A DNA stretch of 64,000 nucleotides. Origin: Deltaproteobacteria bacterium (GTDB lineage Bacteria > Desulfobacterota > Desulfobacteria > Desulfobacterales > Desulfosarcinaceae). Numbering within the stretch: the stretch's first letter is position 1; every line of letters begins with the position of its first letter. Shown here piece after piece: positions 6,376 through 49,107 of this stretch. Where the stretch lies: the NCBI GenBank assembly GCA_021824175.1, contig JAKALP010000008.1:1-64000 (forward strand), in the 5' to 3' direction. Below the pieces are notes generated by a model. That model saw only the letters and a program-made list of their open reading frames with translations. It ran no database searches and was not told the DNA's origin. The position numbers were made by a program, and so were the translations under genes.

Positions 6376-6393
6376 TTGGTATATGGCTTGCAA
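6376..6393 (+). promoter_or_regulatory. Sigma-54 promoter at the head of the glycan island
   Basis: TTGGTATA, four bases, TTGCAA. GG and GC are ten bases apart, matching the degenerate sigma-54 consensus. It is the only promoter-like motif I can read before the first glycosyltransferase, and it would place the island under the sigma-54 regulator encoded 2 kb upstream. Only motif matching supports it. Confidence 0.55.
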
Positions 6394-6548
6394 AAGACAT
6401 CTTTGGAAAAGGTAAAGTTAAAGCTGAAGTTGAAGTTCCCTTAATACGCGTCATCTCTTTGGTTCAGAAGAAATTGGGGGCCAGGCGAAATCCGCTATCG
6501 TTAATTGGAATCGACCAGGCGGAGCTATATGATCAAGGGGGTTATTCG

Positions 6549-7625
6549 TTGAAAGCCGTTGAAAATACTCTTTCGGGTTCCTGCAAGCCCACTCCGACGC
6601 AAGATTTTATCTCGCCGCCGTCAGGGATGGATTCGTCCATGGTGGTTTTGGAAAGATGCAAAGATATTCTTTCCAATGACCGCGCCTCACTGAGCGAAAA
6701 ATCCAAGGCCTATGAAACCATGGGCGATATAAGCGCCAAAATGGGTCAGTTCGATGAAGCCCGTAAGTATTACACTCTGTCGTCTTATGCCAGTCCGTTC
6801 AATGAAGAGCTGTACCGCAAGCGTCTGTCCCTGATCCAACGTAACACCTTACCCCGAATCGCTTTGTCGGTGGTGATTTCCAGTTATTATCGATTCAGCA
6901 GTTTGGTCAGGACAGTAGAAAATGTCCGGGCCAATACGTTTTTCCCCCATCAGATCATCGTAGTGGTCGACAAATGCGACGACGGCACCGTCGAATATGT
7001 CCGCGAACAACACGGCAAAAATAGCTTCGTGGGCCTGGTCAACGAAAGACATCAGGGCAATGTCGCCAGCTTGATCAAAGGCATGTGTCAATCCCAGGGT
7101 AATTACATAGCGCTGCTCGGTGACGATATCCGGCTGATGCCAGGCTGGGATCTGGAAGTGGTGTTGACCATCGAAAATGATCCCCAGGCCGGTTGCGGCG
7201 TACCATTGATTCTCGATCCTGATGGCGACATCGATTCCGCCGGCAAGTTCAATGAATTCTGCAGCCCTAAATTCGAATGGATCGGGCGTTTAAAACAATT
7301 TCGCACCGATTACGCCTGCGGGAAAAATATGCTGAATTTTCCAGAGCTGCATCACCCTAGAGAGTGCGACTATGGCGTAGCGCCGGTGTTAAAAAGAAAA
7401 TGCCTTGAACAAATTGGCAGGGTCGATGGGGCTTACCGGCACTATTTCTTTGATCCTGATCTGGGCTACACTCTGCAAGAGCATGGCTGGAAGAATATCT
7501 ATTGTCCTACCTCCGTGATGGTTCACAATCAACGGCAGAGCGAATCGGACGACAAAGAACGCAATCAAAAGGCCGCTCCGGAATATTACTACTTTGTTCA
7601 TAAATGGGGTCTACATCTACCATGA
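6549..7625 (+). CDS. Family 2 glycosyltransferase with short TPR-like N-terminus
   Basis: A GT-A fold glycosyltransferase of about 358 residues. A TPR-like segment (KAYETMGDISAKMGQFDEA) precedes the GT2 core, which begins at IALSVVISSYYR. It has the nucleotide-sugar region VVVDKCDDGT and the acidic motif LLGDDIR. The start is unclear: no ATG occurs before 6627. I chose TTG at 6549 because AAGGGGG sits 7 bases upstream; TTG 6459 and ATG 6627 are alternatives, and the frame stays open further upstream. The stop overlaps the next gene (ATGA). Donor and acceptor are unknown. Confidence 0.8.
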   Translation: MKAVENTLSGSCKPTPTQDFISPPSGMDSSMVVLERCKDILSNDRASLSEKSKAYETMGDISAKMGQFDEARKYYTLSSYASPFNEELYRKRLSLIQRNTLPRIALSVVISSYYRFSSLVRTVENVRANTFFPHQIIVVVDKCDDGTVEYVREQHGKNSFVGLVNERHQGNVASLIKGMCQSQGNYIALLGDDIRLMPGWDLEVVLTIENDPQAGCGVPLILDPDGDIDSAGKFNEFCSPKFEWIGRLKQFRTDYACGKNMLNFPELHHPRECDYGVAPVLKRKCLEQIGRVDGAYRHYFFDPDLGYTLQEHGWKNIYCPTSVMVHNQRQSESDDKERNQKAAPEYYYFVHKWGLHLP

Positions 7626-8377
7626 ACGGGTCAGAGAATGCCATGACCAAATCGGAAGTAAATACCCAAGACATCCAGGTCGCCATTCTGGCCGGAGGGC
7701 TGGGAACCCGTCTCAGGTCCGTCATTTCGGATCGCAATAAAGTGGTGGCCGATGTCAATGGCACGCCCTTTATCGATTACCTGTTATACCGGCTGGAAAA
7801 CGCGGGATTTAGCGAAGTGATTCTTTGCAGCGGCTACAAGCACGAAGACCTCTTCGCCCGTTTGGGAACGCACTACCATCAAATGCGTCTGCACTATTCG
7901 CCCGAACCTGCGCCCCTCGGAACAGCGGGCGCTCTCCGACATGCTCTGCCGCTGTTTACCAGCGAGTACATCCTTGTGCTCAACGGTGACTCCTACTGTG
8001 ACCTGGATTTCGAAAGGCTCATTCGCCAGCATTTCCGGCAGCGATCCCAAGCGACACTTGCAACCGTATGGGTGGAAGATACTCGCCGTTATGGAACCCT
8101 TTTGATCAGCCCCACTGGCGAATTAATTGAATTCCAGGAAAAAAGCAGCGATTCCACTAACGGCTTTATCAATGCGGGCATATATTTATTGCCAAAGTTA
8201 TTAATTGAGACCATCCCGGCCAGACGTGCACTCTCGCTGGAGCAGGATATCTTTCCGGTTTGGACCAAAAAACGATTGATCACGGTGTATCATCATAACG
8301 GCCATTTTATCGATATCGGCACAGCGGCGTCCTATCGCCAAGCCCAAGCAATACTGCCATCCATCGCATCCATATAA
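7622..8377 (+). CDS. hddC: Sugar-1-phosphate nucleotidyltransferase (HddC-like)
   Basis: A 251-residue nucleotidyltransferase. The signature VAILAGGLGTRLRSV is at the N-terminus, followed by the Lys of NKVVADVNG and the metal-binding motif LNGDSYCD. The single-domain size and motif wording fit the HddC group, which makes GDP-D-glycero-alpha-D-manno-heptose from the 1-phosphate. A HddA-like kinase and a Gmd-like dehydratase nearby support this. Other NDP-sugar pyrophosphorylases of this size remain possible. The ATG at 7622 forms an ATGA overlap with the upstream gene; an in-frame ATG at 7604 also exists. Confidence 0.75.
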   Translation: MNGSENAMTKSEVNTQDIQVAILAGGLGTRLRSVISDRNKVVADVNGTPFIDYLLYRLENAGFSEVILCSGYKHEDLFARLGTHYHQMRLHYSPEPAPLGTAGALRHALPLFTSEYILVLNGDSYCDLDFERLIRQHFRQRSQATLATVWVEDTRRYGTLLISPTGELIEFQEKSSDSTNGFINAGIYLLPKLLIETIPARRALSLEQDIFPVWTKKRLITVYHHNGHFIDIGTAASYRQAQAILPSIASI

Positions 8378-8535: not shown

Positions 8536-9549
8536 ATGACCAAAAAAGCTTTGATCACGGGTATTACCGGCATGGTCGGATCGCACCTGGCCGATTTCCT
8601 GCTTGCAAATACCGATTGGGATATCTACGGCCTGTGCCGTTGGCGCAGCCCCTTGGACAATGTGGAACATCTACTCCCGCGTGCGAACAAAAAGGAAAGA
8701 ATCACTTTTCTTTACGGTGATTTGAGCGATTTCATTTCACTTCAAAAAGCCGTGGAGGAGAGCAGGCCCGATTTTGTGTTTCACCTGGCGGCCCAGAGTT
8801 ATCCCTCCACCAGCTTTACTTCCCCATTGCAGACCCTGGATATTAACATCCTGGGCACCGAACGATTGCTTGAAGCGCTGCGGCAGAGCAAGCAGAGTAA
8901 TCCAGTCATTCATGTGTGCGCCTCTTCCGAGGTTTTCGGACGCGTGCCAAAAGAAAAACTTCCCATAAGCGAAGAATGCTCCTTTCATCCCGCTTCACCC
9001 TATGCCATTTCCAAAATCGGCACGGATATGGTCGGCCGGTTTCACGCCGAGGCCTACCGTCAAAAGGTGGTGGTGACGCGGATGTTCACCCACACCGGCC
9101 CCCGGCGGGGCGATGTCTTCGCCGAATCCACATTTGCCAAACAGATCGCCATGATCGAAGCCGGCTTAATCCCACCCATCGTCAAAACCGGGAATCTGAA
9201 CTCCATGCGCACCTGGTCCGATGTGCGTGACGCGGTGCGCGCTTACTATATGCTGGTCACCGTCAACCCCATCCCAGGAGAATACTACAACATCGGCGGA
9301 ACCTATTCTTGCACCGTCGGTGACATGCTCCACTATTTGATCTCCATTTCCACTGTTTCCGGAATTCAAGTTGAAACAGAAGAAAGCCGGTTGCGCCCGC
9401 TGGATGCTGATCTGCAAGTGCCCGATACCCGCAAATTCCAGCAGCACACCGGTTGGCAGCCGGAAATTCCGTTTGAAACCACGATGCAGGATTTATTGGA
9501 TTATTGGCGGCAAAGGATTAAGGCCGGCAAACAATTCTTGACCCGCTGA
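8536..9549 (+). CDS. GDP-mannose 4,6-dehydratase-like sugar nucleotide dehydratase
   Basis: A 337-residue extended short-chain dehydrogenase. The NAD(P)-binding glycine motif is GITGMVGSHL near the N-terminus, the catalytic region is SSEVFG, and the active-site YxxxK is YAISK. Wording such as HPASPYAISK and THTGPRRGD is typical of GDP-mannose 4,6-dehydratase and close relatives. It sits between HddC-like and HddA-like genes, so the substrate may be GDP-D-glycero-manno-heptose (a DmhA-type step towards 6-deoxy-heptose) rather than GDP-mannose. That choice is inference. A REP-like element lies on each side. Confidence 0.8.
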   Translation: MTKKALITGITGMVGSHLADFLLANTDWDIYGLCRWRSPLDNVEHLLPRANKKERITFLYGDLSDFISLQKAVEESRPDFVFHLAAQSYPSTSFTSPLQTLDINILGTERLLEALRQSKQSNPVIHVCASSEVFGRVPKEKLPISEECSFHPASPYAISKIGTDMVGRFHAEAYRQKVVVTRMFTHTGPRRGDVFAESTFAKQIAMIEAGLIPPIVKTGNLNSMRTWSDVRDAVRAYYMLVTVNPIPGEYYNIGGTYSCTVGDMLHYLISISTVSGIQVETEESRLRPLDADLQVPDTRKFQQHTGWQPEIPFETTMQDLLDYWRQRIKAGKQFLTR

Positions 9550-9736: not shown

Positions 9737-10792
9737 ATGATATTTACCAAGACCCCCTATCGCATCTCCTTTTTCGGCGGCGGCACGGACTATCCCACCT
9801 GGTACCTCAAACATGGGGGTGAAGTGCTCTCCACGACCATCGACAAATACTGCTACCTGTCGTGCCGTCATCTGCCGCCCTTTTTCAACATCAAGCACCG
9901 CGTGGTCTGGTCGCACATTGAAACCGTCTCCCAGATCTCCGAAATTCTACACCCGGCCGTGCGCGAGGGGTTGCGGTATCTTGGTTTCGACGATGCCGTG
10001 GGATTGGAGATCCATCATCAAGGTGATCTGCCGGCCCGCACCGGCATGGGCTCCAGTTCGTCTTTTGCCGTGGGGCTCATTAAGGCCCTGACCGCGTTAA
10101 AAGGCCAGATGATCGGCAAGCACGACCTGGCCATGAAAGCTATTGAACTGGAACAGAAGATCCTCAAGGACAATGTCGGCTCCCAGGACCAGGTGGCCGC
10201 GGCCCACGGCGGCTTCAACCGCATTCACTTCCATACTTCGGGAGATATCCAAGTGGAGCCTATCATCCTGCCGACCCAGCGCCTGGCCGCCCTGGAAGCA
10301 AATCTGATGATGGTATACACCGGCGCCAGCCGCATTGCTTCCGAAATCGCCGGCCAAATCATCGCCAGTCTGGAGGAAAAGGAAAGGGTCTTGAACCAGA
10401 TGCGGCTTCTCACCGAAAAAGCCGTATCCATTCTCTCCTCCAGCCAGGACTTGGATGGTTTCGGCGCCCTTTTGGATGAAAACTGGATGCTCAAGCGCAG
10501 TCTGACCCAAACCATCTCCAATACGCGCATCGACAAAATCTACACCAAAGCCAAAAACGCCGGTGCACTGGGCGGCAAATTGCTGGGTGCCGGCGGCGCG
10601 GGCTTCATGGTCTTCTATGTGCCTAAAGCCAAACGCCCGGCCGTCAGGGAAGCCCTGGATAATTACTTGATGGTTCCCTTCAAGTTCGAACACGAAGGCA
10701 GTAGTATCATCTTCTACAATCCTCAAGAGTGCGACCAGTATGGCGAAGCATGCGAGTCCACCGACCCGCCCCGCATGTCGGCGGCAGGGTAG
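9737..10792 (+). CDS. hddA: GHMP sugar kinase (HddA-like heptose-7-phosphate kinase)
   Basis: A 351-residue GHMP-family kinase. The N-terminal substrate region is PYRISFFGGGTDYP, the ATP-binding motif GMGSSSSFAVG is at about 101-112, and a C-terminal GAGGAGFM is the third motif. These wordings are typical of D-glycero-alpha-D-manno-heptose-7-phosphate 1-kinases; fucokinase-type relatives are an alternative. With the HddC-like gene it would supply GDP-heptose. No GmhA isomerase or GmhB phosphatase is in the window, so those steps must be encoded elsewhere. AAGGTG lies 6 bases before the ATG. Confidence 0.78.
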   Translation: MIFTKTPYRISFFGGGTDYPTWYLKHGGEVLSTTIDKYCYLSCRHLPPFFNIKHRVVWSHIETVSQISEILHPAVREGLRYLGFDDAVGLEIHHQGDLPARTGMGSSSSFAVGLIKALTALKGQMIGKHDLAMKAIELEQKILKDNVGSQDQVAAAHGGFNRIHFHTSGDIQVEPIILPTQRLAALEANLMMVYTGASRIASEIAGQIIASLEEKERVLNQMRLLTEKAVSILSSSQDLDGFGALLDENWMLKRSLTQTISNTRIDKIYTKAKNAGALGGKLLGAGGAGFMVFYVPKAKRPAVREALDNYLMVPFKFEHEGSSIIFYNPQECDQYGEACESTDPPRMSAAG

Positions 10793-10816: not shown

Positions 10817-12322
10817 ATGACCTTAAACTCCGCTCAACAACAAGTCAGCGCCTTGTTCCAGGCACACGGCCAGGCCGCCGTGGAGACGGCTTTGGCCGGC
10901 TGGTATCTCAACAAGGCGCTATCAGGCGCCGATCAGGCCGATTCACAGGCGATCATCGCCAAGGCGCTGGCCTTAAACTGCGAGGAGACCAATTATCGAC
11001 TGGCTGAATTCAACAAATGGAAAAAGAATTTTCATGAGGCCGCGCAATACTACAAAACCGCCTTTGTGGTAAATCCTTCCAACCTCCAACGCAGAAGTGA
11101 CATCGGAGAATTTTTGCTGCGATACGCTACACAGAAGGATATTTTTGATTTCTTTTCTCATATCCATAAGATAGACCAGACCGATACCCTGGCCCATTAT
11201 ATCGTCAGATTTTTCGAATATTTTGTTTGGCTCCAAAAAGAAATCGTCGAAAATGTCGGCCCCGCCATCAATAGTTCGAACGGCAACCGAACGTTGATCA
11301 TGCAGCTTGTCTTCTGGGGGCCCCGATACACTCATATCCTGTTGGACTACTTTCTTCCGGCATTATGCGCCTCCGGCAATTTGCCGGCGATTTTCAAGAA
11401 ATATAAAATTCACTTTATTTTCTGCACGGATCAGAACGGCGAGGAAGCCTTAAAATCTCATCCCAGTCTCAATCGGATCAGGCCATTTGTGACTCCCTAT
11501 ACAATTGTATTTCCGAAACCCTTTATGGATTTTATTGCGCATTATCACGAACTCTTCGGACCTGGCTGGAATATTCCTGCCGGCCTGATGACCCAGTCAG
11601 GGTATTACTCCGTCCTTGAGCTTGGCAGACGAACTGGCTCTCATGTGCTCAATTTTTCCCCGGACCACATCATCCCTAACCGATTCATGGTTGAATTGGA
11701 TTGCTTGCTGGAACAAGAGCCTCCTGCCGTCACCGGACCCGGTTACCGCCTCTACTATAACAAACCGATCCTCAACGAGATCGAATCCAATTACCGCAAT
11801 ACAGAAGGTGCCATCGACATATCCGAATCCAGCATGATTCAATTGCTGATCCGTCATCTTCCCGTCCAAAATTACGTGGATTCGGATCAATACTCCAATT
11901 TCCCCATCTATCTGTGCTGGCGCGTTCCAGGCGAAGGTATCATTGCCCATGTCAATCATTTTCATCCCTGGGTCGTCAAAGGCGATTGCTTGAACAGCCC
12001 CATGGAATTGACCGTTGATCCCATAGACGGCTACTTTCTGAGCAGAAAATTAGATCACAAGGAATCCATTGTGTTCGCTCCCACCGGAATGATCACCTTT
12101 GATCTGGGCGACAATCCCTTGCTTCTGCCGGTCACTCGTAATCCCTTCAGCCCAAGCAAAGTCGGTCAGTGGCTAAGTCCCTACCTGACGCCACTTCATG
12201 AGCGTTACTTTTTACGCCCCAATTACTATCGAAGCATTCCAGGCAACCCTTCATCGGAATTCAGACAAACCGCAGCCCAGGCTTTGGCCACCGTAAAGGA
12301 GATCATCGAATATGCCCGATAG
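10817..12322 (+). CDS. Unidentified 501-residue protein of the glycan island
   Basis: I do not recognise a named family. Residues 1-115 are helical with one TPR-like unit (FHEAAQYYKTAFVVNPSN). The rest is a mixed alpha/beta body. Its strands (LIMQLVFWGPRY, IHFIFCTDQNG) are followed by a conserved-looking DQYSNFPIYLCWRVPGEG region. There is no membrane segment or signal peptide. Size, TPR-like start and neighbours suggest a glycosyltransferase or other sugar-acting enzyme, but no catalytic motif is clear. AGGAGG precedes the ATG at a long 13-base spacing. The stop overlaps the start of the next radical SAM gene by 11 bases. Confidence 0.7.
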   Translation: MTLNSAQQQVSALFQAHGQAAVETALAGWYLNKALSGADQADSQAIIAKALALNCEETNYRLAEFNKWKKNFHEAAQYYKTAFVVNPSNLQRRSDIGEFLLRYATQKDIFDFFSHIHKIDQTDTLAHYIVRFFEYFVWLQKEIVENVGPAINSSNGNRTLIMQLVFWGPRYTHILLDYFLPALCASGNLPAIFKKYKIHFIFCTDQNGEEALKSHPSLNRIRPFVTPYTIVFPKPFMDFIAHYHELFGPGWNIPAGLMTQSGYYSVLELGRRTGSHVLNFSPDHIIPNRFMVELDCLLEQEPPAVTGPGYRLYYNKPILNEIESNYRNTEGAIDISESSMIQLLIRHLPVQNYVDSDQYSNFPIYLCWRVPGEGIIAHVNHFHPWVVKGDCLNSPMELTVDPIDGYFLSRKLDHKESIVFAPTGMITFDLGDNPLLLPVTRNPFSPSKVGQWLSPYLTPLHERYFLRPNYYRSIPGNPSSEFRQTAAQALATVKEIIEYAR

Positions 12323-13316
12323 CCGCCGTCGCGCGCTGGATCATCATTCGGGTCGTGCCAACCTTGGCCCCATCATACCCAAGGCCGATCACAACTATGT
12401 GGCTTTCTTCCTGACCCTGAGCTGCAACCTGAAATGCCCCTATTGCATCAATCTTCATGACCATGTGCATCGAATCGATCAAGCGCGCCGCAAAATGATG
12501 ACCGCCGATGAGTGGATTTCAGCCGCCGATCGCTTGACCCTGCGCGACGATCTGCCGCTGACCCTGCAAGGGGGTGAACCCACCCTTCACAAAGGCTTTT
12601 TCCGCATTGTCAATGAAGTCAAGCCGGAGATCAAAATGGATCTGATGACCAACATGATGTTTGATGTCCGGCAATTCATTGAGAATGTCCCCACTTGGCG
12701 CTTCGACCGCCAGGCGCCCTACGCGCCCATTCGCGTCAGTTATCATCCCGGCCAGAATGATATCGAAGATCTGATCCGGAAGACCTTTAAGCTTCAGGAT
12801 GCGGGATTCAGGGTCGGGCTGTACGGCATTGCGCACCCGGACGCAACCATTGCCAAACATATCCAGGACGTGCAAGCGCGCTGCCTCAAACTGGGCATCG
12901 ACTTCCGCACCAAAGAATTTCTGGGCTTTCATGAAGACAAGCTATACGGCACATTCAAATACGACGGCAGCATAAACGGCGCCGCCCATTGCGCCTGCGA
13001 GTGCCGCACGACCGAAATCATCGTTGACCCCAGCGGCAATGTATTTCGCTGCCACTCGGATCTCTACAAAGGGCGTTTGCCCATCGCCCATATTCTGGAT
13101 GCTGATTTCAACGAAGAGAGCATTGATGTCTTTCGTAGCTGCCAAAATTTCGGAGACTGCAACCCGTGTGATGTCAAAGTAAAGACCAATCGCCATCAGA
13201 TTTTCGGGCACACCAGTGTGGAAATTCGTGACATTCGCAACACAAAAGATGATGGGACCATAAAAAGTAGCACAGTGCCTCTTAATGTCATCCCCGCGCA
13301 GGCGGGGAACCAGTAA
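12312..13316 (+). CDS. Radical SAM protein with SPASM-like C-terminus
   Basis: A 334-residue radical SAM enzyme. The CxxxCxxC cluster motif is C38, C42, C45 (CNLKCPYC), and LQGGEPTL is the SAM-binding glycine region. A cysteine-rich C-terminus (CACEC, FRCHSD, CQNFGDCNPC) probably binds a further iron-sulfur cluster, as in SPASM proteins. The substrate is unknown; the neighbours suggest a nucleotide sugar or glycan precursor. The last 11 or so codons (NVIPAQAGNQ) are read out of a REP-like repeat, so the natural C-terminus may have been replaced when the repeat inserted. Confidence 0.85.
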   Translation: MPDSRRRALDHHSGRANLGPIIPKADHNYVAFFLTLSCNLKCPYCINLHDHVHRIDQARRKMMTADEWISAADRLTLRDDLPLTLQGGEPTLHKGFFRIVNEVKPEIKMDLMTNMMFDVRQFIENVPTWRFDRQAPYAPIRVSYHPGQNDIEDLIRKTFKLQDAGFRVGLYGIAHPDATIAKHIQDVQARCLKLGIDFRTKEFLGFHEDKLYGTFKYDGSINGAAHCACECRTTEIIVDPSGNVFRCHSDLYKGRLPIAHILDADFNEESIDVFRSCQNFGDCNPCDVKVKTNRHQIFGHTSVEIRDIRNTKDDGTIKSSTVPLNVIPAQAGNQ

Positions 13317-13427: not shown

Positions 13428-14495
13428 ATGGGGAAATATAATTTTGATGGCCATAAACTGGCCTACCATCCGGAGAGAGTTTCGGAATATCTGCGCAGCG
13501 GCGACTGCTTCCCCCTCTATGTGGAAATCAGCCCGGTGGGCGGTTGTAATCATCGCTGTTTGTTCTGCGCCTATGATTTTATCGGTCACCCCAACCGCCG
13601 GCTCACCACGGGACGTCTGTTGACCATTCTGACTGACATGGCGGCTTGCGGGGTCAAAAGCATCGTATTCGCCGGCGAAGGCGAGCCATTGCTGCATCCG
13701 GATATCGCCGTCCATATCGCCCATGCCAAAGCCGCGGGCATCGATATCGGACTGTTCACCAATGGGCAACTGCTCAACGAAGCGCTGGCCATAAAAATAC
13801 TGCCGCACCTGAGTTTCGTGCGCTTCAGCTTTAACGGCGGCACCGCACAAGACTACGCTACCGTGCATCAAGTGGCTCCCAAAGTATTTGAAACGGTGGT
13901 GGACCACCTGCGGCAGGCAGTCATCCTTAAAAAGTCCAATGGCTGGGAGGTCGATATCGGCGCCCAGTTTGTTTTGATCCCAGAAAATAAAGATTCCCTG
14001 CTGGCCGCCGCGGCACTGCTCAAGGATGCCGGGCTGGACTATCTGGCGGTCAAACCGTTTGTGCACCAGCGGTCGGAGCAATTTTACCACTTGGAGGACG
14101 CCTACGATCCAGCGGACCTGGAGACTTTGTTCGCGCAGCTCAACGCCTTATCCGATGACCATTTTTCCGCTCTGGTGCGAACCGACGCGTTTATGAACTC
14201 CGGCCCGCGTACTTATAAGGAATGCCGGGGTTGTTCGTTCATCACGGTGCTCAACTCGGCCGGCGACCTGGCCTCTTGTCTGCCCTACTGGGACAAGCCC
14301 GAGTTTGTCTTCGGCAATATCTACGAGGCCGATTTCCGCACCATCTGGCAGAGTCACCGGCGTAAACAACTTCAACATTTTCTTGAAAGCACATTAGACG
14401 TCAGCCAGTGCCCGGCCAATTGCCGACCCAATGCCATCAACGCTTTTTTAAGCGAGATAAGTAAACCTTCCGTGAGACATGTGAACTTCATATGA
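13428..14495 (+). CDS. Radical SAM/SPASM protein
   Basis: A 355-residue radical SAM enzyme. The cluster motif is C40, C44, C47 (CNHRCLFC), and FAGEGEPLLHP is the SAM region. The C-terminal SPASM-like part has CRGC, SAGDLASCLPYW and CPANC. It ends NAINAFLSEISKPSVRHVNFI, a terminus shared in pattern with the protein at 18090 (NAINDFL...HINFI), so the two are paralogues. The ATG at 13428 is preferred; an earlier in-frame start at 13323 would only translate the repeat. The stop overlaps the heptosyltransferase start (ATGA), so the two are translationally coupled. Confidence 0.87.
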   Translation: MGKYNFDGHKLAYHPERVSEYLRSGDCFPLYVEISPVGGCNHRCLFCAYDFIGHPNRRLTTGRLLTILTDMAACGVKSIVFAGEGEPLLHPDIAVHIAHAKAAGIDIGLFTNGQLLNEALAIKILPHLSFVRFSFNGGTAQDYATVHQVAPKVFETVVDHLRQAVILKKSNGWEVDIGAQFVLIPENKDSLLAAAALLKDAGLDYLAVKPFVHQRSEQFYHLEDAYDPADLETLFAQLNALSDDHFSALVRTDAFMNSGPRTYKECRGCSFITVLNSAGDLASCLPYWDKPEFVFGNIYEADFRTIWQSHRRKQLQHFLESTLDVSQCPANCRPNAINAFLSEISKPSVRHVNFI

Positions 14496-15487
14496 AACCC
14501 AATACCGACAAAATGAAAATCCTGATCATCAAACTCGGCTACTCCGAGACCCTGGACCCGGAGATCGGCAAAGTGGTCAGCCTGGGCGATGTCATCCGAA
14601 CCACGCCCATCCTGTGGGCACTCAAGGAGAAATACCCGGACTCGCATATCACCTGGGTGATTTCCGAACAGGCCGAACCGTTGCTCTACCGCAATCCCTT
14701 TGTGGACCGGCCCCTAGTCTGGGATCACTTCGTTCCCTTTCAGCTCATGAAGGAGAAGTTCGATATCCTGATCAACCTAGAGAAGATTCCCGGCGTATGC
14801 GCCCTGGCCGACATGATCGACGCCTGGGGCAAGTACGGGTTTCGCTTCGAGACCGTCGGCGGCACCTATCACGGTTATGAAAAGGGCTTAAGTTTTATCA
14901 GCTATATCGAAGGCAAGACTTCGGTCCAGGCGCGCGGCTACTGGCAGCAGGTTCTGATCCAGATGCTAGGCGTCCGGTGGAAGAAGCAGAAGTATATTTT
15001 GGGGTATAAGGCCAAACAAGGCGCCGCCGCTGATATCGGGTTCAATTATGAGGTGGGTTCCAAATGGCCCCATAAGGCCATGGACATGGAACTGTGGAAG
15101 CAATTGGAGCAGCGTCTGACCGCTCAAGGCTACAGCGTTTCCTGGCAGGAGGGCAAAACCAATCTGTTCAAATATATGGATTGGATCAATTCCTGCCGGC
15201 TGATCATCACCAATGACAGCCTGGGACTGCATCTGGCCTTTGCCTTGAATAAAAAAGTGGTCGGCCTCTTCGGCCCCACTGATCCGGATGAAGTCTATTT
15301 CTACAACGGTAGCCAGGTGATTACCTCCGACCAGGAATGCCCTCACATGCCCTGTTGCGCCACGACCTGCAAATCCGGGCTGTACTGCATGAAATCGTTG
15401 GATGTCGCCAAAATCGAGAACGCGGTGAATACCCTGTTCGGCCGCAAACCCGAAGATAACACCCTTTTAAGGACCGGCACCGAATGA
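14492..15487 (+). CDS. Family 9 glycosyltransferase (heptosyltransferase-like)
   Basis: A 331-residue GT-B enzyme of the lipopolysaccharide heptosyltransferase family. The N-terminal domain begins MKILIIKLGYSE, with the GDVIRTTPIL region. The C-terminal nucleotide-sugar domain has IITNDSLGLHLAFALNKKVVGLFGPTDP, the classic GT9 signature. The local GDP-heptose genes suggest heptose as donor, although classical heptosyltransferases use ADP-heptose. A Cys-rich stretch (CPHMPCCATTCKSGLYC) near the C-terminus is unusual for bacterial GT9. It overlaps both neighbours by four bases. Confidence 0.88.
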   Translation: MKPNTDKMKILIIKLGYSETLDPEIGKVVSLGDVIRTTPILWALKEKYPDSHITWVISEQAEPLLYRNPFVDRPLVWDHFVPFQLMKEKFDILINLEKIPGVCALADMIDAWGKYGFRFETVGGTYHGYEKGLSFISYIEGKTSVQARGYWQQVLIQMLGVRWKKQKYILGYKAKQGAAADIGFNYEVGSKWPHKAMDMELWKQLEQRLTAQGYSVSWQEGKTNLFKYMDWINSCRLIITNDSLGLHLAFALNKKVVGLFGPTDPDEVYFYNGSQVITSDQECPHMPCCATTCKSGLYCMKSLDVAKIENAVNTLFGRKPEDNTLLRTGTE

Positions 15488-16269
15488 AGCCACTATCCGA
15501 TACCGCCAAAGAGATTCGCAAAACCATCATCGAAATGGCCCACCGCTCCAAAAGCCCGCATGTGGGATCGAGCCTTTCGTGCGCGGATATTCTGACCACA
15601 CTATACTTCGATACCATGCGCCTCGACCCTTGGGAGCAGCGCGATGTCTTCATTCTCAGCAAAGCGCATGCGGCCATGGCATTATACAGTACCCTGGCGC
15701 ATAAGGGCATCATGAGCCGGCCACAGATCGAAGGCTACTATCAAAACGGAGGCACGTTACCGGCCCACCTCGATCGCGCCCCGCAATGCGGAGTCGAGGT
15801 TTCAGGTGGATCTCTCGGCCACGGCTTCAATATGGGCATCGGGTTGGCATTTGGATTCAAACGAAAAAATCAGAACCGCAAAGTATATGCCCTGATCGGC
15901 GACGGCGAAAGCCAGGAAGGCTCCATCTGGGAAGGGGCCCTGTTTGCGCCCAAGGTTGGTGCCGACAATTTCACGGCCATCATGGATCACAACAATTTGC
16001 AGGGCTATGGCAGACCCACCCAGATATGCTGTTTCGACCCCATGCGAGATAAGTGGGAAGCATTTGGCTGGCACACGCTGGAAGTAAACGGGCACGATTT
16101 CGAAGCGCTTCGGTGCGCGCTGAAGGAAGACTCCCAGGGCAAACCCAAAATGATCATTGCCCGGACCACCAAGGGCAAAGGGGTTTCCTTCATGCAAGAT
16201 CAGTTGATCTGGCACTACTACATTGTGACCGATGATCACAAACACCAAGCCCTGGAGGAGCTCGCATGA
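15484..16269 (+). CDS. Transketolase, N-terminal subunit
   Basis: A 261-residue split transketolase subunit holding the diphosphate-binding domain. The thiamine diphosphate motif starts with GDG at about 139 (IGDGESQEGSIWEG) and ends with the Asn of DHNNLQ. It is followed at once by the C-terminal subunit gene. Its place between heptosyltransferase and sugar reductase genes suggests it transfers a two-carbon ketol unit to or from a sugar in the glycan pathway, rather than serving central metabolism. The usual SKGHA reads SKAHA. Confidence 0.88.
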   Translation: MKPLSDTAKEIRKTIIEMAHRSKSPHVGSSLSCADILTTLYFDTMRLDPWEQRDVFILSKAHAAMALYSTLAHKGIMSRPQIEGYYQNGGTLPAHLDRAPQCGVEVSGGSLGHGFNMGIGLAFGFKRKNQNRKVYALIGDGESQEGSIWEGALFAPKVGADNFTAIMDHNNLQGYGRPTQICCFDPMRDKWEAFGWHTLEVNGHDFEALRCALKEDSQGKPKMIIARTTKGKGVSFMQDQLIWHYYIVTDDHKHQALEELA

Positions 16270-17234
16270 GAAATGCTTTTATCGACACTATCCTGACCGC
16301 CTGCCGCGAGCGTGAAGATATTTTCATCCTCAGCGGCGATGCCGGCCTGGGTGTGTTCGACGACTTCAAAAAGGACTTTCCCGAGCGGTTTTTGAACCTG
16401 GGCGTGGCCGAGCAGAATACCATCAGTTTCGCGGCCGGCTTGAGCATGAGCGGCCATAAGGTGCTGGTCTACAACATCATTCCATTTCTGCTGTATCGTT
16501 GCTACGAGCAGGTCCGCAACGACATCTGCTATCAGCAATTGCCCATCATCATGGCCGGCATCGGCTGCGGTCTGACCTATGCCCCCCAGGGCATGACCCA
16601 TTACTCCGTGGAAGACATCGGCATTGCCCGCGGCCTGCCCAACCTGACCGTGCTTTCCCCGGCCGATCCCATCGAAGCCAAAAGCGCGGCGCTGTTCGCC
16701 CTCCAAAGCGATGCTCCGGTGTATGTGCGGTTGGCCAAACGCGGCGAGCCCAACCTGCATACTGACCATACGCTCGACATTGGCCAACCCCTTGTGCTGG
16801 CCGAAGGAGAGCGCATCGCCGTGCTTTGTCATAGCGTCATTGCCGAAGAGGCGCTTAAAGCTAGAACAAAACTTGCCAACGTGGGCATCTATCCCCGGAT
16901 CATTTCCATCCCCATGCTGCAACCGATGAATAAAGCGGCGCTGGTGGAGATGTTAAAGGATGTCCGCATAGTATTGTCCGTGGAGGAGCATTATGTCTCC
17001 TGTGGCCTGGGCGCTCTCCTGCTCGAACTGGTTCATGAGTTCGGACTGAATCACACATTGCTGCGACTAGGTCTGCCGGACCATTTCATTCATGACATCT
17101 ACAATACAGCCGGCATGCGCGCCCATTTCGGGATCGACGCCAATGGTATCGCCGCCGCTGTCCATCGTCTTTTGGATCAAAAAATTATTCCGGCCGGAGC
17201 CGAACATGCCTACCCAGCCTCCCTTCAACCATAA
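16266..17234 (+). CDS. Transketolase, C-terminal subunit
   Basis: A 322-residue partner of the preceding gene, carrying the pyrimidine-binding and C-terminal transketolase domains. The typical FLNLGVAEQNTISFAAGL segment supplies the glutamate that activates thiamine diphosphate. MTHYSVEDIGIARGLPNL is the second family signature. ATGA overlap with the N-terminal subunit gene implies equal synthesis. The last codons overlap the start of the reductase gene by 29 bases. Confidence 0.88.
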   Translation: MRNAFIDTILTACREREDIFILSGDAGLGVFDDFKKDFPERFLNLGVAEQNTISFAAGLSMSGHKVLVYNIIPFLLYRCYEQVRNDICYQQLPIIMAGIGCGLTYAPQGMTHYSVEDIGIARGLPNLTVLSPADPIEAKSAALFALQSDAPVYVRLAKRGEPNLHTDHTLDIGQPLVLAEGERIAVLCHSVIAEEALKARTKLANVGIYPRIISIPMLQPMNKAALVEMLKDVRIVLSVEEHYVSCGLGALLLELVHEFGLNHTLLRLGLPDHFIHDIYNTAGMRAHFGIDANGIAAAVHRLLDQKIIPAGAEHAYPASLQP

Positions 17235-21585: not shown

Positions 21586-21672
21586 CCTGTCCGCGAATCG
21601 AAAAATATCCGAGATACGATTTTTCTATATTCCAGCTATTGGCAACCAACTGAAAATAATATCGATCAAAGT

Positions 21673-22581: not shown

Positions 22582-22649
22582 TAGGTCTCTCCCCAAGTGT
22601 ACGCCACCCATAAATGAACCCAACCAGACACACTGTGTGCTAATAAAAA

Positions 22650-23705: not shown

Positions 23706-23797
23706 TGCTGTTAATTAAAGACAATCTTGTATACCTTCCACAGACTAAAAATTTAGCGAAACGCTGAAAATATGCTGCAACCATTTGGTGAACTAAT

Positions 23798-36847: not shown

Positions 36848-37356
36848 TTGTAGAAAAAACCAATCTAAAGGAAGTACTGTTGATCAAGCCCGAGGCCTTC
36901 GAGGACCATCGCGGCCAATATGTGGAACTTTACAATGATGAGTTGTACCGGAAGCACGGTATTGGCGTGACTTTTGTCCAGGACGACATCTCCGTTTCCC
37001 ATCGTCATGTGCTGCGGGGCATCCACGGCGATGGAGAAACATGGAAGCTCATCTCCTGTCTGCACGGCAGCTTTTACTTTGTGGTGGTCAATTGCGATAC
37101 CGCTTCACCAGACTTTGGCCAATGGCAATCCTTTACCTTGTCCGAAAGCAATCGCCATCAGGTGCTGGTGCCGCCCAAACACGGCAACGCCCATCTGGTG
37201 ATCAGCGAAAGCGCCATCTTCCACTACAAACAAACCACCTACTACAATCCCAAGGGGCAATTCACTTACGTGTGGAATGACCCTCGTCTGAATATCTGGT
37301 GGCCGATCAAAACTCCGATTTTATCCCGCCGGGATGAGATGGGCCGTTTCGTTTGA
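36844..37356 (+). CDS. RmlC-like dTDP-4-dehydrorhamnose 3,5-epimerase family protein
   Basis: A 170-residue cupin of the RmlC family. DHRGQYVELYN, LRGIHGDG (with the catalytic His), KLISCLHGSFYFVVVNC and VLVPPKHGNAHLV (second His) follow the family order. YKQTTYYNP matches the tyrosine region. It would epimerise C3 and/or C5 of a 4-keto sugar nucleotide, for example the product of the Gmd-like enzyme. The ATGA overlap couples it to the radical SAM gene. Confidence 0.83.
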   Translation: MIVEKTNLKEVLLIKPEAFEDHRGQYVELYNDELYRKHGIGVTFVQDDISVSHRHVLRGIHGDGETWKLISCLHGSFYFVVVNCDTASPDFGQWQSFTLSESNRHQVLVPPKHGNAHLVISESAIFHYKQTTYYNPKGQFTYVWNDPRLNIWWPIKTPILSRRDEMGRFV

Positions 37357-37745: not shown

Positions 37746-38711
37746 ATGTTCAAGAATAAAAAGGTTCTGGTTACCGGCGGCGCAGGCTTTGTGGGCGCCA
37801 ATCTGGTTCAAAGATTGCTGAAAGAAGGCGTCTCGGTGCGGGCCACGCTGCACCGCAAAGATGCCGTCATCAAAGATAAGCGGGTGGAGTACATTCGCTG
37901 CGACCTTCAAAATACCGATGACGCCCGGCGGGTGTGCCAGGGCATGGATTACGTGTTCTTATGCGCGGCCAATACGTCCGGCGCGGCGGTCATTGAGAAG
38001 ACGCCGCTGGTGCATCTGACCCCCAATCTGGTCATGAACGCCTTGATGCTGGAAGCAGCTTATGCAGCCGGCGTTCAGAAAGTGCTTTTTATCAGCAGCA
38101 ATACGGTCTACCCGTTGACCGATTATCCAGTCAAGGAAGAAGATGCCTGCTACGATTTCTATGAAAAGTACTTTATTGTCGGCTGGATGAAGCGCTTTTC
38201 AGAGATCGTGTGCGAAATGTATGCGACCAAGATCAAAAAGCCCATGGCCACCATCGTGGTGCGACCCGGCAATATCTACGGTCCCCTGGATGACTTTGAC
38301 TGGGAAACTTCCCATGTGCTGCCGGCCCTGATCCGCAAAGTGGTGGAGCGCATGGACCCCATACCGGTATGGGGCGATGGGATGGACATCAAGGATTTCA
38401 TCTACATCGATGACTTTATCGACGCCCTGCTGCTGGCCATGGAGAAAATACAGGGATTCGATGTGGTCAATGTCGCCGGCGGCAAACCCTATGTGCTCAG
38501 AGATTTGTTGAATATCATCATCGCGGCGGACGGCTACAAAAATCCCCGCATTGCCTATGACAGCAGCAAGCCCACCATGATCCCCAAGCGACTGATCGAC
38601 GGAGCCAAGGCGCGTGAAATTCTCGGATTTTCTCCCAAAACGCCCATCGAGGAAGGACTTCGCCGGACCATTGCCTGGTATCGTCGATCACTGCAAAGGA
38701 AAGCGGCCTGA
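37746..38711 (+). CDS. NAD-dependent sugar epimerase/dehydratase family protein without the YxxxK tyrosine
   Basis: A 321-residue extended SDR with VTGGAGFVGANLVQ, CAANTSGAAV, ISSNTVYP, RPGNIYGPLDDFDW and WGDGMDIKDFIYIDD. The region expected to hold YxxxK reads YFIVGWMKR, so Val stands at the Tyr position and the nearest Tyr is seven residues before the Lys. It is homologous to the protein at 34182, and the pair may act in sequence or as a heteromer. The ATG follows AGGAT. The stop overlaps the start of the giant glycosyltransferase (TGATG). Confidence 0.8.
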   Translation: MFKNKKVLVTGGAGFVGANLVQRLLKEGVSVRATLHRKDAVIKDKRVEYIRCDLQNTDDARRVCQGMDYVFLCAANTSGAAVIEKTPLVHLTPNLVMNALMLEAAYAAGVQKVLFISSNTVYPLTDYPVKEEDACYDFYEKYFIVGWMKRFSEIVCEMYATKIKKPMATIVVRPGNIYGPLDDFDWETSHVLPALIRKVVERMDPIPVWGDGMDIKDFIYIDDFIDALLLAMEKIQGFDVVNVAGGKPYVLRDLLNIIIAADGYKNPRIAYDSSKPTMIPKRLIDGAKAREILGFSPKTPIEEGLRRTIAWYRRSLQRKAA

Positions 38712-45215: not shown

Positions 45216-46718
45216 ATGACCACCAGCATTGAATCCGCTCACGCTCGTTTCATGCAGCTCACGGAAGCGCTGAAGACCGATGCGCTTCCACCACCCGAAG
45301 TTCTTCAACAATATTGTGATCTGGCCGCCGCCGCAGAGCGGTTGGACACTGCCCGCCAAACGCTTTTCTTCCTCAAAGAAAAACACCCCAAAGACATCGG
45401 CATTCACAGCCGCTATATCACCCTTTGTATCCAGATGGGAGATGGAGCCGAGGCCATGGCCACCATTGAATCCATGGCCGGCCGAATGAAGCTGACCGAT
45501 GAATTTATTGATGCCGCCCTGTCCGTGCGAAAACGGCTCGGCCCCACGCCTTTGCCCAAAGATAAGTCTGATTCGCTTTCCCTTTGCATGATCGCGCGCA
45601 ACGAAAGTAAATTCATGGGAGCGTGTTTATTAGGCGTCAAGCCGCTCATCGATGAAATCATTCTGGTGGATACCGGTTCCAATGACCGCACCGCCGATAT
45701 TGGTCGTCTATTCGGCGCCCAGGTGTTTCACTTCCAATGGTGCGACGATTTTTCAGCGGCCCGCAATTTCGGTCTGTCCAAAGCCACGGGGCAATGGATT
45801 TTGATCCTGGATGCCGACGAAGCCATTGCGCCCTCGGAATTTGCTGCTCTGCGCGCTCTGATCCGCAACCACGAGAAGAAATCCGCGGCCTTTGCCATCG
45901 AGACCCGCAATTACTGCTACACGGCCAACACCCTGGGGTGGATGGCCAACAGCGGCCGCTACCCGGCCCATGAAGCTGGTTTGGGGTGGTTTCCCAGCAC
46001 CAAGGTGCGTCTGTTTCGGCGTCAGGATCAAATTCAATTCCATTTCCCGGTCCATGAGCGGGTCGAGCCCTCCTTGCGCGCCGCCGGGATTGCCGTTAAG
46101 CCTTGCAAGGTGCCGGTTCATCACTACGGCCACCTGAACGAATCCCGCAACCAGGCCAAAGCGCGCAAGTACTTCGAACTGGGAATCGCCAAACTGGAAG
46201 CAATGGCCGATGATCCGGGTGCGGTTCGCGAACTTGCGGTTCAAGCCGGCCAGCTTGAAAAATGGCCGGAAGCCCTTTCTTTATGGCAGCAATTGCTGCG
46301 CTTGCGCCCCGGCTACCCCGAAGCTTTGATCAATCTGGCCGGAGCCTGCTGGCAACTCGGCCAATACACTCAAAGCCTGGAGTGGGCGCTGCGCGCCGTG
46401 GCCGCTGACAAGGGTATGAAAGAGGCCCATTTCAATGAGGCCCTGAGTCATATGATGCTGGCCGAATTCCCAACGGCACAGAGAATCCTGGAGGAATTAT
46501 TAAAAGGGAACAAAGACTACGTGGCCGCGCAGTTCATGCTCGGCGTGGTCTACTGTGCTTCCGGCAAAATGGACAAGGGGCGCGGAGTTTTCAACCATCT
46601 CAAGACCACCAACGCCCGTACTGCTCTGCCCCAGGCATTGGAAGATATCGGCCAGCGTCTGATGAAGGCCGGGCTTGCCCAGGCGGCTGAAAATCTCAAA
46701 GCGATTTGCCTTGCTTAA
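45216..46718 (+). CDS. Family 2 glycosyltransferase with TPR domains
   Basis: A 500-residue protein. Residues 1-110 are helical and TPR-like. A GT2 domain of the kind often called SunS-like or TPR-GT2 follows (about 120-330; LSLCMIARNESKFM, ILVDTGSNDRT, LILDADEAI). A C-terminal TPR array (about 330-490) ends it. Such soluble TPR glycosyltransferases typically modify proteins or peptides. The gene is enclosed by a pair of long inverted repeats (45002-45154 and 46875-47030). CCAGGA precedes the ATG. Donor and acceptor are unknown. Confidence 0.85.
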   Translation: MTTSIESAHARFMQLTEALKTDALPPPEVLQQYCDLAAAAERLDTARQTLFFLKEKHPKDIGIHSRYITLCIQMGDGAEAMATIESMAGRMKLTDEFIDAALSVRKRLGPTPLPKDKSDSLSLCMIARNESKFMGACLLGVKPLIDEIILVDTGSNDRTADIGRLFGAQVFHFQWCDDFSAARNFGLSKATGQWILILDADEAIAPSEFAALRALIRNHEKKSAAFAIETRNYCYTANTLGWMANSGRYPAHEAGLGWFPSTKVRLFRRQDQIQFHFPVHERVEPSLRAAGIAVKPCKVPVHHYGHLNESRNQAKARKYFELGIAKLEAMADDPGAVRELAVQAGQLEKWPEALSLWQQLLRLRPGYPEALINLAGACWQLGQYTQSLEWALRAVAADKGMKEAHFNEALSHMMLAEFPTAQRILEELLKGNKDYVAAQFMLGVVYCASGKMDKGRGVFNHLKTTNARTALPQALEDIGQRLMKAGLAQAAENLKAICLA

Positions 46719-46874: not shown

Positions 46875-47030
46875 CACGGGCCAACCCCGCTAAAGAACAG
46901 CGGGATCAAACATCTGATTGAAAAGAAATTAAGGTGTTTGACGGGCCAACGGGCCAACCCCGCCAAAGCCCGGCGGGATCAAACATCTGATCGAAAAAAA
47001 ATTAAGGTGTTTGACGGGCCAACGGGCCAA
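46875..47030 (-). repeat. Inverted repeat, right copy
   Basis: Reverse complement of 45002-45154 with only scattered differences. Two units carry GCGGGATCAAACATCTGAT, AATTAAGGTGTTTGACGGG and a GCGGG hairpin each. Confidence 0.85.
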
Positions 47031-47060
47031 CGGACCAACGGGCAAACGGGCAAACGAACC
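47013..47060. repeat. Octamer tandem repeat ACGGGCCA
   Basis: Six tandem 8-base units (ACGGGCCA twice, ACGGACCA, ACGGGCAA twice, ACGAACCA) immediately before the GT41 start codon. Copy-number change here would alter the spacing upstream of the gene. Confidence 0.8.
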
Positions 47061-47064
47061 AATT

Positions 47065-49107
47065 ATGACCCCAGCCAAACACTACGCCACGCTCTACGAA
47101 AAAGCGCTTGCCTGCCATAAACAGGGGCAGCTCATGACGGCCGTCGAAGGCTATCAGGCTGTACTGACCGCCCAGCCCAATTTTGTTCCCGCGCAGCTTA
47201 ATCTAGGGGTCGCGTTTTTCCAAAAAGGTGACTACCCCGCGGCTTTGACCTGCTTTCAGGCCGCGCTGCGCCTGGATCCCAGTATGGCCGAAGCCTGGTA
47301 TAACGGCGGCAACGCCATGCGCCTGCTTGAGCGTACGAAAGAAGCATTTGATTGGTATCTGCGAGCCATCGAACTCAACCCCGGTCACGCCGACGCCCAT
47401 TACAATCTCGGCAATCTGTGTAAGGACGCGGGCAATCTCCACGATGCCGGTGTTCATTATCGCAACGCTCTGGCAGTGGCGCCAAAATCGGACATGGCGT
47501 GGAACAATTTAGGCGTCGTGCGGATGGAAGCCGGCCAAACGCAGGAAGCCAAGGAATGTTTTCTCAAGGCCAAAGCCATTCGTCCGGATAACCTGGATGC
47601 CCTGCTAAATCTGGCCCTCAGCTTCAAATATTTAGGCCGGGTGGCTGATGCCTTGAGCCATGTGGAACAGGTGCTGACGCGTTGCTCCTGTCATGGGCCG
47701 GCGCTGGCGCTGTATGTTTCATTGCTGCAGCAGAACTGCGAGTGGCGCAGCCTGCGATCCGCGCTGCAACGTCTGGAAGCGGCCACCCGGGCGCAATTGG
47801 CCCATGGTCGGCAACCCGCTGAATCTCCATTTCTAAGCTTTACCCGCGCTGCCGACCCGAAGCACAACTTGATCATCGCCCAGAGCTGGAGCCATACCCT
47901 TGCCCGGCGATTTGCTTCCGCGCGTCAAAGCCTGGATGCGAAGGTCCGGTGTCCGGGAACCCACGACGGGGTGCTGACCATTGGATATCTCTCAGAGCAG
48001 TTCCGTAATGGAGCCACGGCCCATTTGACCGCGGCGCTGTTCGGATGCCATGATCGCGGTCAATTTCAAATCAATGCCTACTCTCTGGGAGCAGATGACG
48101 GCAGCAACTACCGCCGCCGCATTGAGCAGGGTGTGGATCGCTTCATTGATATCCGCAATCTGTCCATCACAGCGGCCGCCGAGCGGATTCGTTCCGACGG
48201 TGTGGACATTCTGGTGGATCTCATCGGCTGGATGCACGGTCACCGCATGGGGATTCTGGCGCTGCGGTCAGCGCCCATCCAGGTGAACTACTTGGGGTTT
48301 CCCGGCACCAGCGGCGCGGATTTCATGGATTACATCGTGGCCGACCGCACGATCATTCCTCCCGAACATCAACCCTTTTATTCGGAGAAAGTGGTTTGTC
48401 TTCCCCATTGCTATCAGGCGACCGACCCCACGCCGCCAGTTTATGGCAAGACGCTTTCGCGGCGCGAGTGTGGACTGCCCGCCCAGGGCTTTGTCTTTGC
48501 TTCCTTTAATACCGATTATAAAATTGAACCGGAACTCTTCAGCGTTTGGATGCATATTCTGCGAGCGGTTCCCGGAGCAGTACTCTGGCTGCTGGTGCGG
48601 ACCGACACCGCCCAACACAATCTGCGGCATGAGGCCGCGAGCATGGGCGTCGACCCGCGCCGCCTGATTTTTGCCGAGTCGCTGCCCAAGGAGCGCCATC
48701 TGGCACGGCTTAAGCTGGTCGATTTGGCCCTGGATACCGTCACGGTCAATGGTCACACCACCACCACCGACGCCATCTGGTCCGGCGTGCCGGTGGTGAC
48801 CCTCCAGGGTACTCACTTTGCTTCCCGGGTGGCTTCCAGCATATTGCTTGCGGATGGCATGGAAGAATTGATCACCCACAGCCTGGAAGAGTATCAGAAG
48901 CTGGCCATCCGGCTGGCCATGGAGCCGGAACTGCTGGGTGCGACAAAGAAGAAATTGAGCGCCAATAAGCAAAGCTATCCGCTCTTTGATATCCGCCGCT
49001 TTGCACGTAACCTGGAAAGCGCTTACCTGACCATGTGGGACCTTTATAAAAATGGGCGCCCGCCGGTGGGATTTGAGGTGAAAGAGATCGACACATATTT
49101 AAACTGA
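47065..49107 (+). CDS. TPR / GT41 O-linked GlcNAc transferase-like (OGT/SPINDLY) protein
   Basis: A protein of about 680 residues. An N-terminal TPR array (about 1-235; repeats such as AWYNGGNAMRLLERTKEAFDW) is followed by the two-lobed GT41 catalytic domain. Signatures: IGYLSEQFRNGATAHL, VDILVDLIGWMHGHR, APIQVNYLGFPGTSG, VFASFNTDYKIEPELF, TTTTDAIWSGVPVVTL and FASRVASSIL. GT41 enzymes add GlcNAc or fucose to Ser/Thr of cytoplasmic proteins. ATG 47065 is preferred to 47011, whose first 18 residues are only the octamer repeat read as protein. A terminator follows. Confidence 0.9.
   Translation: MTPAKHYATLYEKALACHKQGQLMTAVEGYQAVLTAQPNFVPAQLNLGVAFFQKGDYPAALTCFQAALRLDPSMAEAWYNGGNAMRLLERTKEAFDWYLRAIELNPGHADAHYNLGNLCKDAGNLHDAGVHYRNALAVAPKSDMAWNNLGVVRMEAGQTQEAKECFLKAKAIRPDNLDALLNLALSFKYLGRVADALSHVEQVLTRCSCHGPALALYVSLLQQNCEWRSLRSALQRLEAATRAQLAHGRQPAESPFLSFTRAADPKHNLIIAQSWSHTLARRFASARQSLDAKVRCPGTHDGVLTIGYLSEQFRNGATAHLTAALFGCHDRGQFQINAYSLGADDGSNYRRRIEQGVDRFIDIRNLSITAAAERIRSDGVDILVDLIGWMHGHRMGILALRSAPIQVNYLGFPGTSGADFMDYIVADRTIIPPEHQPFYSEKVVCLPHCYQATDPTPPVYGKTLSRRECGLPAQGFVFASFNTDYKIEPELFSVWMHILRAVPGAVLWLLVRTDTAQHNLRHEAASMGVDPRRLIFAESLPKERHLARLKLVDLALDTVTVNGHTTTTDAIWSGVPVVTLQGTHFASRVASSILLADGMEELITHSLEEYQKLAIRLAMEPELLGATKKKLSANKQSYPLFDIRRFARNLESAYLTMWDLYKNGRPPVGFEVKEIDTYLN

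Follow-up and report, generated by a model that had tools for sequence, protein, structure and literature searches.

What kind of sugar is built by a gene island in which radical S-adenosylmethionine (SAM) enzymes, two thiamine diphosphate (ThDP) enzymes and a GDP-heptose-type gene set stand together? This question was raised by a glycan island of about 43 kb (positions 6376-49107) in the draft genome (6.07 Mb) of a Deltaproteobacteria bacterium of the Desulfosarcinaceae (GCA_021824175.1); the window analyzed here comprises the first 64 kb of the 249.6-kb contig JAKALP010000008.1. One ThDP enzyme is a pair of dehydrogenase-type E1 alpha and beta subunits, and the other is a split transketolase. 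A preliminary description of the window had proposed an unusual branched, C-methylated or chain-extended higher sugar. Our overall reading, to which we assign a probability of about one half, is that the island serves to make an unusual branched sugar, predicted to derive from GDP-heptose, and to attach it. The earlier proposal stands; it was strengthened by the finding that the E1 pair belongs to a conserved and widespread sugar cassette, and weakened with respect to methylation and the role of the transketolase.

The orphan E1 pair and its partners

The E1 alpha and beta genes were present as described, and no E2 or E3 gene was found within the window; in this genome they are encoded on different contigs (C47 and C11). 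With the five closest E1 alpha sequences as queries, 80 related loci from many phyla were retrieved from 84,980 species genomes. Probes for E2 and E3 taken from the window genome matched in none of 106 E1-related loci, whereas E2 was detected in 8 of the 22 canonical E1 loci used as control, so that the orphan character attributed to the pair holds across its relatives. In the E1 alpha tree, 87 cluster-borne rows were grouped (SH-aLRT 95), with all 22 controls outside, and a subclade of 71 rows that includes the window sequence had a support of 100. Of the 98 cluster-borne E1 alpha rows, 86 had RYLEHVG, or a near variant of it, in place of the RGH loop of canonical E1; the canonical loop lies near the site that touches the lipoyl domain of E2, and its change would fit a lost coupling to E2. 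The catalytic Glu and His of E1 beta were conserved in all sequences (85/85), and the aligned E1 alpha sequences nearly all had the GDG motif. The loop motif and the gene linkage provide a handle for finding such enzymes in annotated genomes, in which their present label is dehydrogenase E1 subunit. Two different E1 alpha genes (E1 pairs) were observed side by side in six clusters (L041, L056, L057, L063, L066 and L067).

Partner genes within 6 kb were counted for 48 testable E1 loci, using 18 canonical E1 loci as controls. A hddA gene was near the pair in 32 of the 48 loci, a 4,6-dehydratase (gmd) or a ColD-type 3-dehydratase in 34, at least one of these three in 43, and a B12 radical SAM gene in 32, while each of these counts was 0/18 for the canonical loci. 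The ColD-type assignment was based on a DegT protein with the catalytic Lys changed to His (about 31/80 loci), the signature of 3-dehydratases making 3,6-dideoxy-4-keto sugars, which are the acceptor type of YerE. A window-type cassette (4,6-dehydratase, mt2, sdr, epi1, rS7 and rmlC; see Table 1) was present in 17 loci, and was mutually exclusive with the ColD-type gene (0/17 versus 31/63, p = 1e-4), indicating that this one E1 family is supplied with a 4-keto sugar in two different ways. These two preparation routes are the strongest argument for a 4-keto nucleotide sugar as the acceptor of the pair. On plasmid pDMC1 of the cultured relative Solidesulfovibrio magneticus RS-1, genes for a radical SAM enzyme, a NUDIX protein, a kinase, E1 alpha, E1 beta, a short-chain dehydrogenase/reductase (SDR), a DegT protein, an epimerase and a nucleotidyltransferase stand in a row; its E1 was placed outside the main clade. 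A related E1 cluster is also carried by the cultivable Heliobacterium mobile. That genes for enzymes producing 4-keto sugars repeatedly accompany the E1 pair supports the two-carbon branching idea of the preliminary description, and the pair is likely to be a C2-branching enzyme.

E1-type (alpha-KADH2) pairs are credited with adding a two-carbon branch from pyruvate onto keto sugars of avilamycin, paulomycin, aldgamycin and kibdelomycin, and for the pair from kibdelomycin, sugar-like ketones served as test substrates in vitro (PMC4425429, PMC4753412, PMC12247030). Like AviB1/AviB2, Pau11/Pau12 and KbDH-alpha/beta, the window pair stands alone in a sugar cluster, without E2/E3 and beside keto-sugar-forming enzymes; unlike these, which belong to antibiotic clusters and hexose-type sugars, it is found in a GDP-heptose-type surface-glycan setting in Gram-negatives and candidate phyla. 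A 2025 review assigned the E1-type branching family to secondary metabolism and antibiotic clusters, and the YerE type to lipopolysaccharide and branched surface sugars (PMC12247030); no report of an E1-type branching pair in an O-antigen, heptose or flagellin cluster was found in the open-access literature searched, the coverage of which is limited. The YerE pathway for yersiniose in the Yersinia O-antigen resembles the prediction made here in that a C2 unit from pyruvate is placed onto a 4-keto nucleotide sugar destined for a surface glycan. It also shares ColD/DdhC-type 3-deoxygenation with the sister clusters, but the window has no ColD-type gene. Moreover, YerE is a single-chain flavoprotein of the decarboxylase family acting on a CDP-hexose, whereas the island combines a GDP-heptose set with paired E1 alpha and beta subunits.

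A probable GDP-heptose route and the predicted branched sugar

The HddC-, Gmd-, HddA-, RmlC- and RmlD-like genes listed in the preliminary description were all recovered with Pfam and NCBIfam. As judged from sequence, the Gmd-like protein matched a GDP-heptose 4,6-dehydratase structure (7us5) with 376 bits, versus 179 for the next PDB match, and a plain GDP-mannose 4,6-dehydratase was rejected because the GDP-heptose enzyme scored twice as high. The RmlC-like protein matched several Campylobacter-type GDP-heptose epimerase structures with 124-140 bits, above the dTDP enzymes at 119, and the nearest solved structures of the HddA-like kinase were heptose kinases (4usk, 3k85 and 4n3o). Since dehydratase, epimerase and kinase are all nearest to GDP-heptose enzymes, the suggested heptose origin is supported, and the island probably encodes a GDP-6-deoxy-heptose route. 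A gmhA-like gene beside hldE (C30) and a GmhB-like gene (C48) were located elsewhere in the genome; GmhB of Campylobacter jejuni is likewise encoded outside the capsule cluster (PMC10680097). HddA, HddC, 4,6-dehydratase, C3/C5 epimerase and the GDP-fucose-synthase-like reductase of the C. jejuni GDP-6-deoxy-heptose pathway have putative counterparts in the island, although the described Campylobacter route has neither a ThDP enzyme nor a radical SAM enzyme.

In the proposed mechanism the Gmd-like enzyme, a strong family match, would form GDP-6-deoxy-4-keto-heptose, which the RmlC-like enzyme could epimerize at C3/C5. The new part concerns the E1 pair, which would decarboxylate pyruvate on ThDP and, as there is no E2 to receive the fragment, would pass it on, as a two-carbon unit, to the ketone at C4 of the nucleotide sugar; the product would be a 4-C-acetyl tertiary alcohol. 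An SDR would then reduce the branch ketone, mt2 and the B12 radical SAM enzymes would decorate the sugar, and the glycosyltransferases, including a GT41-like one, would probably attach the glycan to flagellin. More than one sugar may come from the island. If the proposed mechanism is right, uncultured and environmental bacteria would widely use E1-type branching for their surface glycans, with heptoses as substrates, and this would provide a new class of monosaccharides together with new enzymes making chiral tertiary alcohols.

Two other roles of the E1 pair were weighed. The pair could be a normal E1 of a pyruvate or acetoin dehydrogenase, placed in the island by chance and served by the E2/E3 of the cell, as the preserved E1 fold and catalytic residues and the E2/E3 genes elsewhere in the genome would allow; this is very improbable given the absence of E2/E3 from all the related loci, the separate clade, the altered loop and the steady linkage to sugar genes, the first three of which led us to reject a pyruvate dehydrogenase E1. 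It is also improbable, though less so, that the pair works ahead of nucleotide activation, condensing pyruvate with an aldose phosphate in the manner of DXS; HddA and HddC would then activate the resulting 1-deoxy-ketose, and the outcome would be chain extension instead of a branch. Adjacent hddA/hddC genes are frequent and aldehydes are usual acceptors of ThDP enzymes, but the co-occurring 4,6-dehydratase, ColD-type 3-dehydratase and RmlC act on nucleotide sugars and make 4-ketones, and would be superfluous for such a role; moreover, the characterized cluster-borne E1 pairs act on keto sugars (PMC12247030).

Several points weigh against a branched GDP-heptose derivative attached to flagellin. 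The GmhA and GmhB matches fell just under their cut-offs (204 versus 209 bits and 133 versus 150 bits, respectively), and HddA and HddC were far under the curated equivalog cut-offs of NCBIfam, so that the sugar phosphate used is one we infer, and the substrate of the kinase could be a different sugar. The antibiotic E1 sequences (AviB, Pau and Kb) were not among the rows of the E1 tree. If the pair uses the C4 ketone, the two further reductase-type SDRs need another explanation, such as a second sugar or an epimerization. Finally, the flagellin gene of the window genome is about 75 kb from the island and has its own adjacent glycosyltransferases.

Radical SAM enzymes and the split transketolase

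The seven radical SAM genes of the preliminary description (rS1 to rS7) all scored above the Pfam PF04055 cut-off and had an intact CxxxCxxC motif (7/7). The genome contained 67 radical SAM matches, so that about 0.47 were expected in a 43-kb stretch versus the seven observed (P of at least seven, ~7e-7), ruling out chance clustering. A B12-binding domain accompanied the radical SAM domain in rS4 to rS7 (20158, 23798, 27822 and 35411), a SPASM domain was present in rS2 and rS3 (13428 and 18090), and neither was found in rS1 (12312). None of the seven proteins reached the cut-off of a curated NCBIfam subfamily, and the NCBIfam methyltransferase subfamily matches of rS4-rS7 were all far below cut-off. 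The nearest solved structures were the methylase CysS for rS6 (72 bits), the sugar deoxygenation enzyme AprD4 for rS7 (57 bits), and 9ccb (62 bits) and AprD4 (56 bits) for rS4; rS2 was distantly similar to BlsE and DesII. The B12-type architecture is that of AprD4, CysS and TokK, but the similarity is low (~25-72 bits) and other substrates are expected for the island enzymes. Of the three B12-type enzymes for which such structures were compared, two resembled AprD4 about as closely as any methylase. The C-methylation formerly proposed for these enzymes was therefore not upheld, and would be one option among several. Among the four methyltransferase-type genes previously listed, those at 19485, 26812 (FkbM) and 31897 were retained, the last one (mt2) on the basis of a confident methyltransferase-type model despite a weak Pfam match, whereas that at 21673 gave a weak match only. 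The glycosyltransferase genes on either side of rS5, gtA and gtB (22650-26747), are paralogous, and rS5 and gtB form a single fused protein of 981-990 aa in two relatives (L027:6972-9944 and L028).

Both subunits of the split transketolase reported earlier matched transketolase (Pfam; PDB 6yak). Homologues of rS3 were found in 14 of 291 relatives, each from a different genus, and in most of these a ThDP enzyme was encoded within a few genes of rS3. The type of this enzyme varied: it was a split transketolase in the window and in four relatives (G263, G063, G106 and G119), an E1 gene in three (G096, G289 and G204) and a short two-subunit ThDP pair in two (G214 and G059); the full arrangement was not seen in G046, G110, G191 and G287. 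Short two-subunit ThDP proteins (212 and 174 aa) were observed in place of the transketolase pair beside rS2 homologues at L130:9583-11872, which also has rS3, and at L136:2396-4696. In locus L028, identity to the window was only 33-36% for rS2, for rS3 and for the two transketolase subunits, whereas the genes between and around them were 65-69% identical, as if the four genes had been swapped jointly. A SPASM radical SAM enzyme with a ThDP enzyme is a recurrent and possibly new module, which offers a specific starting point for discovering radical reactions of a new kind on sugars. Split transketolases within sugar clusters were also proposed for miharamycin and amipurimycin, but those, all reported from Streptomyces (PMC12247030), differ from the island pair, which is accompanied by SPASM radical SAM enzymes. 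No open-access paper dealing jointly with flagellin, glycosylation, transketolase and radical SAM enzymes was found, within a limited literature coverage.

This second set (rS1, rS2, split transketolase, RmlD and rS3) probably makes another unusual residue; by analogy, and speculatively, a radical SAM enzyme would create or edit a ketone to which the transketolase would add a hydroxyacetyl unit. In a joint reading of both sets, a phylum-spanning E1 family would make C4-branched GDP-heptoses (nonoses) destined for surface and flagellin glycans, as a type of sugar so far unseen, and a SPASM radical SAM enzyme with an exchangeable ThDP partner would form a radical-plus-carboligation module, in which the radical enzyme would make or edit a carbonyl that the split transketolase, E1 pair or short pair would extend. 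Taken together these claims are rather unlikely to hold in full.

Glycan target and layout of the island

The same gene set is syntenic in other genomes, a check suggested in the preliminary description. Almost all of the island is retained, for the most part with 47-81% identity, in a Geobacteraceae metagenome-assembled genome (G291), where it is followed by large glycosyltransferases with tetratricopeptide repeats (TPR), flagellin, a FlaG-like gene, FlbT and FlaF. The flagellin-FlbT-FlaF homologues of the window genome are on the same contig as the island (C42:124-126.5 kb). Flagellin is, by a small margin over even odds, the expected target of the island glycan. GT41/TPR genes also occur in a second glycosyltransferase region (C42:98000-126500), next to flagellin, FlbT and FlaF. 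In L137 (478-4221 and 9483-12302), a 1247-aa flagellin-like gene has a GT41-like gene, a split transketolase and an rS2 homologue in its vicinity.

An O-antigen or capsule as the product, instead of a flagellin glycan, would agree with the general polysaccharide genes of related E1 clusters in other genomes and with the GT9 heptosyltransferase-family gene of the island. This alternative deserves consideration but is the less probable one, since GT41/TPR glycosyltransferases are typical of protein glycosylation, the orthologous G291 island abuts flagellin-FlbT-FlaF, and a flagellin-like gene lies near rS2 and both transketolase genes in G119. A comparable, tentative standing is given to the view that the split transketolase merely supplies sedoheptulose-7-phosphate, the entry of the GDP-heptose route (PMC10680097), with no role in branching. 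Split transketolases are indeed common among the relatives, but a full-length transketolase is already encoded in the genome (C41), the genes to which the pair is linked are those of SPASM radical SAM enzymes and not gmhA/hddA, and E1 or short ThDP pairs take its place between the same radical SAM genes in relatives.

All the island genes are on one strand (Table 1), and few-base overlaps in several gene runs (rS2 to rS3; fkbM to E1 beta) suggest operons. The ten other members of the genus that were searched had neither an E1 of the window clade nor a homologue of rS3, so that the island was probably acquired. The G+C content falls to 0.42-0.49 at 21000-28000 (rS5, gtA, gtB, fkbM and rS6) versus 0.50-0.58 on both sides, suggesting a mosaic origin.

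Table 1. Genes of the glycan island, with window positions and the basis of each assignment.
Feature	Position	Strand	Basis
GT2 glycosyltransferase with N-terminal extension	6459..7625	+	Pfam
hddC-like sugar-1-phosphate guanylyltransferase	7604..8377	+	NTP_transferase; mannose-1-phosphate guanylyltransferase 148 bits, HddC 137 bits (NCBIfam, both below cut-off)
Gmd-like, best matched by GDP-heptose 4,6-dehydratase	8536..9549	+	PDB 7us5; 81% identical copy in G291
hddA-like GHMP kinase (heptose-7-phosphate kinase family)	9737..10792	+	best PDB 4usk, 136 bits; 3k85, 4n3o
Unassigned-family protein, 501 aa, N-terminal helical repeats	10817..12322	+	low-confidence model from three sequences; no match in Pfam or NCBIfam
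Radical SAM rS1	12312..13316	+	Pfam; adjoins rS2 repeatedly in relatives
SPASM radical SAM rS2	13428..14495	+	Pfam; distant BlsE/DesII similarity
GT9 glycosyltransferase (heptosyltransferase family)	14492..15487	+	Pfam
Split transketolase, N-terminal subunit	15484..16269	+	Pfam Transketolase_N; PDB 6yak split-chain transketolase, 195 bits
Split transketolase, C-terminal subunit	16266..17234	+	Pfam Transket_pyr and Transketolase_C
RmlD-like SDR reductase	17206..18093	+	Pfam; TIGR01214 186 bits, below cut-off; start probably near 17206
SPASM radical SAM rS3	18090..19181	+	Pfam; ThDP enzyme neighbour in most relatives
Class I methyltransferase mt1	19485..20165	+	Pfam
B12-binding radical SAM rS4	20158..21585	+	Pfam; PDB 9ccb and AprD4
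Putative methyltransferase-like protein	21673..22581	+	weak NCBIfam match only
Glycosyltransferase gtA	22650..23705	+	Pfam Glyco_trans_1_2
B12-binding radical SAM rS5	23798..25702	+	Pfam; fused to gtB in L027 and L028
Glycosyltransferase gtB	25686..26747	+	Pfam
FkbM-type methyltransferase	26812..27825	+	Pfam
B12-binding radical SAM rS6	27822..29684	+	Pfam; PDB CysS
E1 alpha, putative C2-branching ThDP enzyme	29656..30618	+	Pfam; clade, loop, absence of E2/E3
E1 beta	30609..31649	+	Pfam; catalytic Glu and His
Core-cassette methyltransferase mt2	31897..32823	+	weak Pfam match; model pLDDT 92, methyltransferase fold matches
Classical SDR (sdr), candidate reductase of branch ketone	33183..33965	+	Pfam; recurs beside E1 beta/mt2
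GDP-fucose-synthase-like SDR epi1	34182..35168	+	68-78% identity in window-like cassettes, several phyla
B12-binding radical SAM rS7, core-cassette member	35411..36847	+	Pfam; PDB AprD4
RmlC-like C3/C5 epimerase	36844..37356	+	best PDB Campylobacter GDP-heptose epimerases, ~139 bits
SDR epi2	37746..38711	+	Pfam
Multi-domain glycosyltransferase with TPR, 2094 aa	38711..44995	+	Pfam
GT2 glycosyltransferase with TPR	45216..46718	+	Pfam
GT41-like protein glycosyltransferase with TPR	47011..49107	+	Pfam Glyco_transf_41, 326 bits

Directly after the island, on the same strand, there are cobalamin synthesis genes (CobQ/CbiP-like, CobC/CobD-like and CbiB; 49694-53249), a run that is not kept beside the Geobacteraceae island, where flagellin follows. 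Further along the window, a histidine kinase of 1418 aa with about nine PAS domains is encoded at 59418-63674.

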